64,000 bases of DNA, from the NCBI GenBank assembly GCA_030432595.1, contig JAUIGU010000009.1:1-64000 (forward strand), written 5' to 3'. This stretch comes from Phycisphaerae bacterium. Lineage in GTDB: Bacteria; Planctomycetota; Phycisphaerae; Phycisphaerales; Phycisphaeraceae. The notes beneath the pieces are model-generated. The model was given only the letters and a program-made list of their open reading frames with translations, was not told where the DNA came from and made no database searches. Numbering within the stretch: the stretch's first letter is position 1; each line of letters begins with the position of its first letter. The translations under genes were made by a program, and so were the position numbers. Positions 9,429 through 31,470 of this stretch are shown here, one piece after another.

Positions 9429-9499
9429 CGGGTGCCACGGTCGCTTGCGACCGTGCGGTGTCTGACGACGCGCACCGCCGCAAGCGACGGTGACACCCG
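9429..9499. repeat. Inverted repeat between convergent genes (GGGTGCCACGG family)
   Basis: Two 21-nt arms (9429-9449 and 9479-9499) match at 19 of 21 positions and are separated by 29 nt. The left arm also folds on itself (GCACGGTCGCAAGCGACCGTG type). The left arm begins GGGTGCCACGG, like the repeat at 39299. It could terminate transcription from both sides, but no T-run follows. Confidence 0.7.
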
Positions 9500-20824: not shown

Positions 20825-20920
20825 GGGGAGACTCGGGTGCGGGGCACGGTCGGCGAAACAGCAGGCCGACCACGCACTTTATCGGCGATGCGGAACGTTG
20901 GGGCGTCGATCTCCGGTTCC

Positions 20921-21072
20921 CCTCCCCTTGGGAGGGGTCAGGGGAGGCTGCCGGCAACAATGACGAAACCCGAATGACGAATCACGAAACCGGGAGGAAT
21001 GGCTTCGTCATTCGAGCTTCATCATTCCAAGCCGAGCCCGGGCACCCTCCCCCAACCCCTCCCGAGGGGAGG
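20921..21072. repeat. Nested palindromes: one inverted repeat inside another
   Basis: Outer arms 20921-20947 and 21046-21072 (CCTCCCCT, GGGAGGGG, GGGGAGG pattern) match at 24 of 27 positions. Between them lies a second inverted repeat of an unrelated word family: 20959-20983 (AATGACGAAACCCGAATGAC) and 21001-21026 (its inverse). The block separates the GH15 gene from the phosphoesterase gene. Confidence 0.75.
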
Positions 21073-21087
21073 GGAGTCCAGACGCGC

Positions 21088-28883: not shown

Positions 28884-30476
28884 TCACTCATCCATCACTC
28901 TCCCCACCGCGTCCTCCAACACCGTCACCATCGCGTCGATGTCCTCGGCCGTGCTGTTCAAGGGCGGGAACAGATACATCGAATCACCCAGCGGCCGCAG
29001 CAGCGCCCCGCAGCCGTCGGCGGCGCGGGACTCGACCGCTGCGCGGTACACGCGGTATCCGGTGCGGTCTTGCGCGGGCAGGGCGGTGCCGTCGGGGTTC
29101 GTGAGGTCCACCGCCGCCGCCATGCCGACGCCGCGCACGTTGCGCATATCGCCGCGCCGGTTTGACAACGCTTGCAGCTTCGCGCGCAGCGTGGGTCCGA
29201 GCCGTGCGACGTGCGACAGGATGTCTGTCTCGGCGTACACGTCCAGCGCCGCGTGCGCCACCGCCACCGCCAAGGCGTTGCCCGCGTAGGTGTTTGAGTG
29301 CATGAACGCCCGGCCGTCGAAGTACGGGCCGTAGAAAAGCCCGTACACCGGCTCCGTCGTCAACACCACCGACATCGGCATAAACCCCGCGGTCAGGCCT
29401 TTCGAGACCACGGCGAAGTCGGGCCATGCAGAAGATGGCGGATGTGGGATGGCGGATGGCGGATGGGAAGAACGTCCCGTTTCGGTTTTCGTCTGGTCTT
29501 GTCCATCCGCCATCCGCCATCCGCCATCCGCCATCGCCAGCTGTGACGCCAACACCGCGCCGCACCGCCCCAGCCCCGCGGCGATCTCGTCCGCGATGAG
29601 GTACACGCCGTTTGCGTCCGCCCAGCCACGCAGCCGCCGCAGCAAATCCGGGCTGTAGGGCCGCATCCCGCCCGCCGCCTGCAGCACCGGCTCGTAGATC
29701 ACCGCCGCCAGCGTGTCTGCCGCCGCGTTGAGCAGCGCCTCGATCGTGTCCCACTCCGGCTGCGCGTTCATCCATTCCGGGTCGTCGGGCCCGCTCCGCC
29801 ACGGCACGGGCTCGAGCTTCAACGTCTCGAACATGATCGACCCGTGCGGGCTCGTGTACAGGTCCAGGTCCGACACCGACATCGCGGCCGCCGTCTCGCC
29901 GTGGTACCCGTTACTCAGCGTCGCGAGCTGTGTGCGTTGCGTTTCCCCGCGCTGGTGCTGCGCCTGCAGCGCCATCTTGATCGCCACCTCGACGCCGGTC
30001 GAGCCGTTGTCGGCGAAGAAACATTTGGTGAAGTGGGGTTCGGGGTACGGGGTACAGGGTTCGGCCAAGCCTTCCTCGCCCGAACCCTGTACCCCGTACC
30101 CTGCACCCGCGGCCGTAAAGCGGCCGCTGTTCGCCGCCTCCAGCAACCGCTCGCACAACGACACCAACGCTTCGCTGGTCGTGTTCGCCGTGATGACGTG
30201 CTCAAACTTGTCCGTCTGTTCGCGCACCGCCGCGACCAGCGCCGGGTGCGCGTGCCCCAGCGACTTACACCACCAGGAGCTGATCGCGTCGTACAGCTTC
30301 CGCCCGTCCGCCAGCTCGATCAACGGGCCGGCCGCGCGGACGACTTCTAACGGCGGGAACGCCTCGTAGTCGTGCATCTGCGAGCATGGGTGCCAGACCA
30401 CTTCGTGGTCGCGATTCTGCAAAGGCGTCCGCGCGGTGCGGGTGGGGTCAGGGGTCTGGGGCTTGGGGCTTGGCAT
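28884..30476 (-). CDS. bioA: Adenosylmethionine-8-amino-7-oxononanoate aminotransferase with repeat-encoded insertions
   Basis: PLP-dependent aminotransferase of biotin synthesis (530 aa; the family is about 430). Conserved text: VVWHPCSQMHDYEAFPPLEV, DAISSWWCKSLGHAHP, CFFADNGSTGVEVAIKMALQ, SNGYHGETAAAMSVSD, LIADEIAAGLGRCG, and the PLP lysine in VVSKGLTAGFMPMS. Two extra segments interrupt the pattern: about residues 122-147 (AGYGVQGSGEEGLAEPCTPY) and 314-348 (MADGGWRMADG ... SSAW). Both are translations of palindromic repeats. The N-terminus PSPKPQTPDPT comes from a third repeat. Start: ATG 30476, or TTG 30506. Confidence 0.9.
   Translation of the reverse strand: MPSPKPQTPDPTRTARTPLQNRDHEVVWHPCSQMHDYEAFPPLEVVRAAGPLIELADGRKLYDAISSWWCKSLGHAHPALVAAVREQTDKFEHVITANTTSEALVSLCERLLEAANSGRFTAAGAGYGVQGSGEEGLAEPCTPYPEPHFTKCFFADNGSTGVEVAIKMALQAQHQRGETQRTQLATLSNGYHGETAAAMSVSDLDLYTSPHGSIMFETLKLEPVPWRSGPDDPEWMNAQPEWDTIEALLNAAADTLAAVIYEPVLQAAGGMRPYSPDLLRRLRGWADANGVYLIADEIAAGLGRCGAVLASQLAMADGGWRMADGQDQTKTETGRSSHPPSAIPHPPSSAWPDFAVVSKGLTAGFMPMSVVLTTEPVYGLFYGPYFDGRAFMHSNTYAGNALAVAVAHAALDVYAETDILSHVARLGPTLRAKLQALSNRRGDMRNVRGVGMAAAVDLTNPDGTALPAQDRTGYRVYRAAVESRAADGCGALLRPLGDSMYLFPPLNSTAEDIDAMVTVLEDAVGRVMDE
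29434..29535. repeat. 33-bp inverted repeat inside bioA (ATGGCGG tandem words)
   Basis: Arms 29434-29466 and 29503-29535 match at 31 of 33 positions and are separated by 36 nt. Each arm is a tandem of the heptamer GATGGCG/GCGGATG. The element is 102 nt, a multiple of three, and is translated as BioA residues about 314-348 in the minus frame. Confidence 0.9.
30043..30101. repeat. Perfect 22-bp inverted repeat inside bioA (GGGTACGGGGTACAGGG)
   Basis: Arms 30043-30064 and 30080-30101 are perfect inverse copies with a 15-nt spacer. The arms contain the near-tandem words GGGTAC, GGGGTAC and AGGGTTC. It is translated in frame as BioA residues about 126-145. Confidence 0.92.
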
Positions 30477-30601
30477 GCAGATCGAAGGTCTGTGGGAACG
30501 AAACAAATCGCGTGAACGCCACGCACAACAAAACTCACTGACCCAAGCCTAGACGATCCACCGTCGTGCCTCCCACCCCCCAAACCCCAAGCCCCAGACC
30601 C
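30452..30601. repeat. Inverted repeat spanning the bioA start (GGGTCTGGGGCTTGGGG)
   Basis: Arms 30452-30473 and 30580-30601 match at 21 of 22 positions and are separated by 106 nt that include the bioA start. The left arm is inside bioA and encodes PKPQTPD near its N-terminus. The same words recur at 31391. Confidence 0.8.
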
Positions 30602-30641
30602 GCGCCCGCAGCGCTCGCAACCGCAAACCACTCCGAAACGG

Positions 30642-31368: not shown

Positions 31369-31390
31369 GAGTGCTAGTGGCCGGGGTATG

Positions 31391-31470
31391 GGGTCTGGGG
31401 CTTGGGGTTTGTTTGTACTTGGTTTGTTTCATGCTTCTTGCCTAACCCCCAGCCCCCAAGCCCCAGACCC
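31391..31470. repeat. G-rich inverted repeat (GGGTCTGGGGCTTGGGG family)
   Basis: A perfect 17-nt pair: 31391-31407 and 31454-31470, with flanking partial matches. The word GGGTCTGGGGCTTGGGG is identical to the left arm at 30452. It lies after the GT2 gene and 145 nt before the EF-G-like gene. Confidence 0.8.

Follow-up and report, generated by a model that had tools for sequence, protein, structure and literature searches.

Palindromes with tandem-heptamer arms as probable in-frame insertions in bioA and other core genes of a Phycisphaerae bacterium

Three palindromes at the bioA locus

The window analyzed here, a 64-kb stretch of DNA, is part of contig 16 of the 4.39-Mb assembly of a Phycisphaerae bacterium (G000). 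It carries bioA, whose coordinates are collected in Table 1 together with those of its palindromes; the alternative start TTG 30506 would give a product of 540 aa. The predicted protein matched the TIGR00508 bioA profile over 419 positions (E 1.5e-118) with 396 bits, slightly below the cut-off of 405, and the match was split by two breaks into three stretches spanning the length of the profile. K359, the PLP lysine of the SKGL motif, and other BioA columns were invariant across eight BioA sequences (that of G000 and seven relatives); this lysine is among the residues expected to be necessary in a class III aminotransferase.

Table 1. Coordinates of bioA and of the palindromes in and near it (positions of the 64-kb window).
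Feature	Position	Strand	Description
bioA CDS	28884..30476	-	530 aa from ATG 30476, stop at 28884
IR-A left arm	29434..29466		(G)ATGGCGG heptamers, 33 nt
IR-A loop	29467..29502		36 nt; search reported no further significant copy
IR-A right arm	29503..29535		inverted, 33 nt
IR-B left arm	30036..30069		GGGTTCG/GGGTACG/GGGTACA heptamers
IR-B right arm	30075..30108		inverted
IR-C left arm	30443..30473		GGGTCTG/GGGCTTG heptamers; apparent N-terminus of BioA, MPSPKPQTPDP, encoded here (start codon inferred)
IR-C right arm	30580..30610		in the region upstream of bioA
Intergenic palindrome	31383..31470		GGGTCTG/GGGCTTG family, as IR-C; flanked by genes for a glycosyltransferase and an elongation-factor-G-like protein (gene identities from ORF translations)

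The arms of IR-A (word GGATGGC) are 94% complementary, while the 34-nt arms of IR-B are 88% complementary and contain a perfect 22-bp core pair (30043-30064 / 30080-30101). At both loci, the inverted-repeat score and the 7-nt periodicity were each reached by none of 1000 dinucleotide shuffles, and the RNA folding energies were -73 kcal/mol for IR-A (z -10.7) and -64 kcal/mol for IR-B (z -8.5). The bioA reading frame is open through both palindromes, with predicted segments such as MADGGWRM...HPPSAIPHPPS, and an insert-derived peptide MADGGWRMADGQDQTK is predicted. Compared with Bacillus subtilis BioA (PDB 3dod), residues 115-145 replace about one residue and residues 312-349 replace four. In a predicted structure of BioA, built with eight sequences (mean pLDDT 61) and used solely to judge whether the inserts are unstructured, they form low-confidence coil or loop segments at 124-145 and 312-347.

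These data bear out an earlier note on this DNA, which had described two inverted repeats within the frame of a 530-aa bioA, placed between conserved BioA blocks and built of short tandem words resembling intergenic repeats: the words are heptamers, and the same arms occur between genes. The note had overlooked IR-C, a third heptamer palindrome, which spans the start of bioA. Provided that ATG 30476 is the start codon, one IR-C arm would encode the N-terminal PSPKPQTPDP.

Arm families across the genome

Words were counted in the whole genome and palindromes were surveyed in 798 kb sampled as stretches (18% of the genome). The IR-A word GGATGGC gave 74 genome matches (33+/41-) at about 13 loci, vs. 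5 (4/1) in the control, and the IR-B word GGGTACG gave 28 vs. 2; IR-A and IR-B belong to two separate arm families. Close inverted repeats numbered 40 in 400 kb vs. 1 in a Markov control, and 31 inverted repeats with periodic arms were found in the 798 kb, a few of them REP-like or due to chance. Families with 7-nt words comprise GGATGGC, GGGTTCG, GGGTCTG/GGGCTTG and GTCAGTA, and those with 8- to 9-nt words comprise CGCAGATTT, CGCCAAGA and AGCAGTAG. The variant units GGATTTC and GATGGGC recur together with arm words at unlinked loci.

An IR-A-type arm consists of head-to-tail heptamers (ATGGCGG x4 + ATGG). Among 21 GGATGGC arms, 13 measure 32-33 nt, 15 have their inward end on the identical base of the word, and 18 start on either of two adjacent bases. 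Fixed length and fixed word phase at the ends indicate that these arms are discrete copies and not free microsatellites. Orientation is equally uniform: the G-rich arm comes first in 17/17 period-7 palindromes, and GGGN4 array pairs within one element, found without using complementarity, are convergent in 9/9 cases. Runs of (GGGN4)3GGG numbered 22, vs. 0 in a shuffled control.

The loops between the arms range from 5 to 379 nt and are mutually unrelated. A search for second copies of 11 loops returned none, apart from a 44-bp repeat that is nested and a single weak match at 73%, and no conserved loop common to same-word copies was found for the heptamer families; among the 8/9-nt families, nested composites are shared between copies. 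Loops as mobile cargo were rejected, since they were single-copy at every site tested, and copying of an entire element was accordingly not observed.

Such repeats could in principle arise by local expansion, in which replication slippage builds up tandem heptamers within a variable loop and the inverted arm is added by snap-back (template switching), with no movement between sites. Tandem units, an in-register inverted copy, single-copy loops and the lack of a target duplication all fit this scheme. We nevertheless regard it as unlikely, because arm length and word phase are fixed at both ends across the 21 arms, identical words and variant units lie at unlinked loci, and orientation is strictly convergent, where snap-back of existing arrays predicts both orientations unless a single strand is used. 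Two further observations from relatives and from other phyla, given below, also weigh against it.

In-frame copies in other core genes

Further members of the element class, likewise in frame and without stops, were found in miaA (TIGR00174), nadE (NF010588), lysS (TIGR00499) and smc (TIGR02168), and a single arm lies in frame in mfd (TIGR00580). At least six core genes, bioA included, thus appear to carry in-frame heptamer-armed insertions, and the remaining copies of the class are intergenic. Every in-gene copy found is in frame and stop-free. Part of this is arithmetic: 7 is coprime to 3, so each strand of a heptamer array encodes a single heptapeptide repeat whichever frame is read (for the IR-A-type array, DGGWRMA on one strand and AIRHPPS on the other), and a stop-free word therefore stays stop-free, the arms never introducing a stop. 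The idea that stop-free words explain why heptamers alone occur in genes (5/14 vs. 0/16) was dropped, as stop-free 8-nt words are likewise absent from genes.

Programmed bypassing, in which the ribosome skips a hairpin and leaves the protein unmarked, has precedents in phage T4 gene 60 and the mitochondrial byps elements. The great stability of the hairpins in the coding RNA and the presence of the inserts in core genes would suit it, yet it seems very improbable here, given that the uniform in-frame, stop-free state of the in-gene copies would be needless under bypassing.

Some intergenic copies tightly abut genes (L036 1392-1525, L049 1386-1539 and L052 1494-1936). In these, a stop codon immediately precedes the G-rich arm, and the C-rich arm enters or nearly touches the next apparent start codon (CCGCCATG...).

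Empty sites and nesting in a same-genus relative

Contig 4 of G001, a genome of the same genus, is collinear with contig 17 of G000 at 72-80% DNA identity. At three intergenic sites, a palindrome in G000 corresponds to a short spacer in G001, with gaps of 405, 195 and 136 nt in the former vs. 54, 82 and 21 nt in the latter. The first site holds three palindromes with different words, nested concentrically; at the second, an outer palindrome (AACCAC-GGAT words) is common to both genomes and the inner one is confined to G000. Within genes, the entire arm-loop-arm unit of miaA, about 150 nt, is absent in G001, and the lysS site is empty there, with a 15-aa loop. Since G001 lacks the complete arm-loop-arm structure, the elements arrive as a unit; a whole unit missing from a relative also speaks against local expansion. 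No target-site duplication was visible by eye at the bioA, miaA and smc junctions, where relatives are only 70-85% identical.

Nesting was also seen elsewhere. Window positions 20918-21075 contain nested palindromes: an outer TCCCCTCCCCTTGGGAGGGG-type inverted repeat encloses, in its loop, a second one made of AATGACGAAACCCGAATGACGAA / TTCGTCATT (20959-20981 / 21004-21026). Concentric palindromes of different word families occur on contig 17 (102325-102670, L094) and contig 64 (90261-90549, L118) of G000, both with CGCCAAGA outermost and CGCAGATTT innermost and the former also with CACAGAGG, as if newer elements had entered the loops of older ones. On contig 17 at 230015-230282, this order is reversed.

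The same protein loops in other genera

BioA from relatives was compared at both insertion points. At the IR-A loop, inverted pairs of arms with the words GATGGCA, GGGTACR and GATGTYC were found in G026, G015 and G024, respectively, which represent three genera other than that of G000 (0/1000 shuffles each), while G001, G027, G004 and G029 have no palindrome or a short loop. At the IR-B loop, G027 has one heptamer arm (7-nt period, 0/1000 shuffles) and G015 a different tandem repeat. The G015 site (L005, L198) contains, in frame, four copies of the word CCCCCGGAA and, after them, a palindrome of REP-like type (GGTGCCACACAGCA...TGCTGTGTGCC). In SMC, a GGGTATC palindrome occupies the loop in G007, another genus (0/1000 shuffles), and 28/30 loci have none; the G001 loop perhaps retains a decayed palindrome (inverted-repeat score 9, 24/1000; 7-nt period 0/1000). 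In LysS, the palindrome is found solely in G000 among 30.

Word abundance matches the host. The exact loop word was counted in its own genome for two genera, giving 80 matches of GGGTATC in G007 and about 130 of GGGTACG in G015; G026 has 34 matches of GGATGGC-like words. The simplest reading of these sequences is that elements with different words at the same loop would be independent insertions from each genome's own pool. For the near-identical bioA-loop words of G000 and G026, a single ancestral insertion lost in G001 and G027 is possible.

Both BioA loops differ in length among relatives without palindromes, as would be the case for ordinary lineage-specific loop extensions of biased composition. 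That explanation is refuted by the copies of the arms elsewhere in the genome, between genes included, and it is at odds with DNA that is palindromic and periodic at 7 nt (0/1000 shuffles) and with the use of other words by other genera at this loop. Judged by sequence comparison, the bioA segments are confirmed as in-frame insertions of a dispersed element class.

The exact GGATGGC palindrome is also present in Acidobacteria gp7 and in a Gemmatimonas MAG, so the class is not confined to this lineage, and the sharing of one word between such palindromes is again poorly explained by local expansion. These loci are L201 5018-5139, L202 3330-3433 and L203 263-378; in L201 and L202, the arms are mosaics in which a second word also occurs (GGCGGCTGCGCT, GGCGGCTTCGCG).

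Discussion

Together, our results establish, at the level of DNA sequence, arms that are dispersed, multi-copy and fixed in length and ends, insertion as a unit, one polarity, nesting, single-copy loops, and in-gene copies that keep the frame. We consider it probable that these features reflect the in-frame insertion of small palindromes, each made of two convergent arms of about 32 nt built of tandem 7-nt words around a short unrelated loop. The earlier note had taken the bioA repeats for a mobile or replicating element. Both checks proposed in the note came out in favor of insertion: the arm words are multi-copy in the genome, and relatives either do without these segments or carry other repeats in the corresponding loops. 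The in-frame copies elsewhere and the empty sites in G001 also uphold it. The notion of one self-copying element fared less well: there are two arm families and single-copy loops, and neither a target duplication nor a transposase link was found.

We infer a passage from the genomic arm pool to a new site, which the element would enter as a hairpin, through a single-strand or replication-linked step. Entry would perhaps favor pre-existing hairpin loops, a preference suggested by copies nested inside older ones. Purging of harmful copies would follow, and in-gene survivors would be those whose length keeps the frame and which lie in a surface loop tolerating a change in length; the surviving insert would then be translated as part of the protein.

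The note's comparison with the palindromic elements of Rickettsia (RPE) holds for behavior and fails for family membership. RPE and their Wolbachia counterparts (Ogata 2000, 2002, 2005; reviewed in PMC2229807) are likewise small palindromes found between genes and in frame in genes of conserved proteins, with stable hairpin RNA; the host protein tolerates the insertion of RPE and, judged from sequence, that of the present elements. However, RPE are families of related sequences, 105-146 bp long and bearing 12-bp terminal inverted repeats (PMC2229807), and their copies share the whole of this length, whereas here the arms only are shared, several word families exist and the loops are unrelated. 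Organism and sequence also differ.

In arm architecture, the closest parallels are the convergent heptamers GGGAATC / GGGGAYT of Xanthomonas and Nostoc, read as G-quadruplex repeats (Rehm 2015, PMC4692102). These comprise one word per genome and are 89-93% intergenic; X. campestris has 70 close convergent inverted heptamer pairs, with about four units per arm (PMC4692102). Dispersed, G-rich tandem words of 7 nt and frequent close convergent pairs are present here too. The differences lie in the several words per genome, the discrete arm ends, and the in-frame copies at identical loops of orthologous proteins across genera. The quadruplex-capable unit GGGNATC or GGGGAYT (≥3 G) does not match: GGATGGC has GG runs only, and the IR-B and IR-C words contain GGG but are otherwise unlike it.

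REPINs combine two REP arms, individually imperfect palindromes, at near-constant spacing and are linked to RAYT transposases (Bertels and Rainey 2011, PMC3116915). The present elements share with them a conserved inverted arm pair around a spacer as the unit, lone arms as presumed remnants, and insertion into existing copies. Of the two marks of a MITE, terminal inverted repeats and a target-site duplication, the inverted repeats are present, and no duplication was visible at the miaA, bioA and smc junctions in comparison with relatives of 70-85% identity. Mobilization of the inserts in trans by the bacterium's own RAYT (Y1) transposases would fit this common plan of two arms and a variable spacer, as would three Y1_Tnp matches and typical REP pairs in the genome. 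It is nonetheless quite unlikely: the heptamer arms are tandem words and not imperfect palindromes, loop length varies widely, and the two Y1 genes inspected among the three matches (C17:179290 and C32:4185) have short repeats of another kind on their flanks (CGCGTCGCTTCG; GCGCAGGCAAGGCTGCCTGCGGCT) and no heptamer arms. Moreover, word-rich G026 has one Y1 match, and many word-poor genomes have several. REPIN-like GGGTGCCACGGTCGCTTGCGACCGTG pairs, separate from the heptamer class, occur at window positions 9429-9499 and on contig 17 at 41687, 158107, 232297, 286133, 288377, 393660 and 402017.

The elements thus resemble RPE in behavior and the Xanthomonas heptamers and REPINs in arm architecture, and on testing are a member of none of these families. 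Tandem-word palindromes similar to these are common in environmental genomes. Searching the literature for the words themselves and for inserts of this kind in planctomycetes returned nothing, and no paper naming tandem-word palindromes was found. More tentatively, the elements may represent an unnamed, widespread class of mobile palindromes in several phyla, with arms of 7- to 10-nt words, fixed length, strict convergence and unrelated loops, a hairpin-linked spread that nests in older loops, and repeated coding insertions at identical permissive loops of core enzymes; we put this somewhat short of probable.

For annotation, repeats of the MADGGWRM / HPPSAIRHPPSA type should be read as element-derived. 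Any mechanism has to account for the discrete arm ends, the single polarity and the nesting, which makes the origin of short palindromic repeats testable. Until now, in-frame palindromes in core genes were an oddity of Rickettsia and Wolbachia. A free-living lineage now appears to harbor a class with the same habit and an unrelated sequence, which uses several words per genome and has repeatedly entered identical loops across genera. Such elements would time and again supply proteins with new segments in nature, and their insertions would serve as natural replicate experiments on how proteins accept them.
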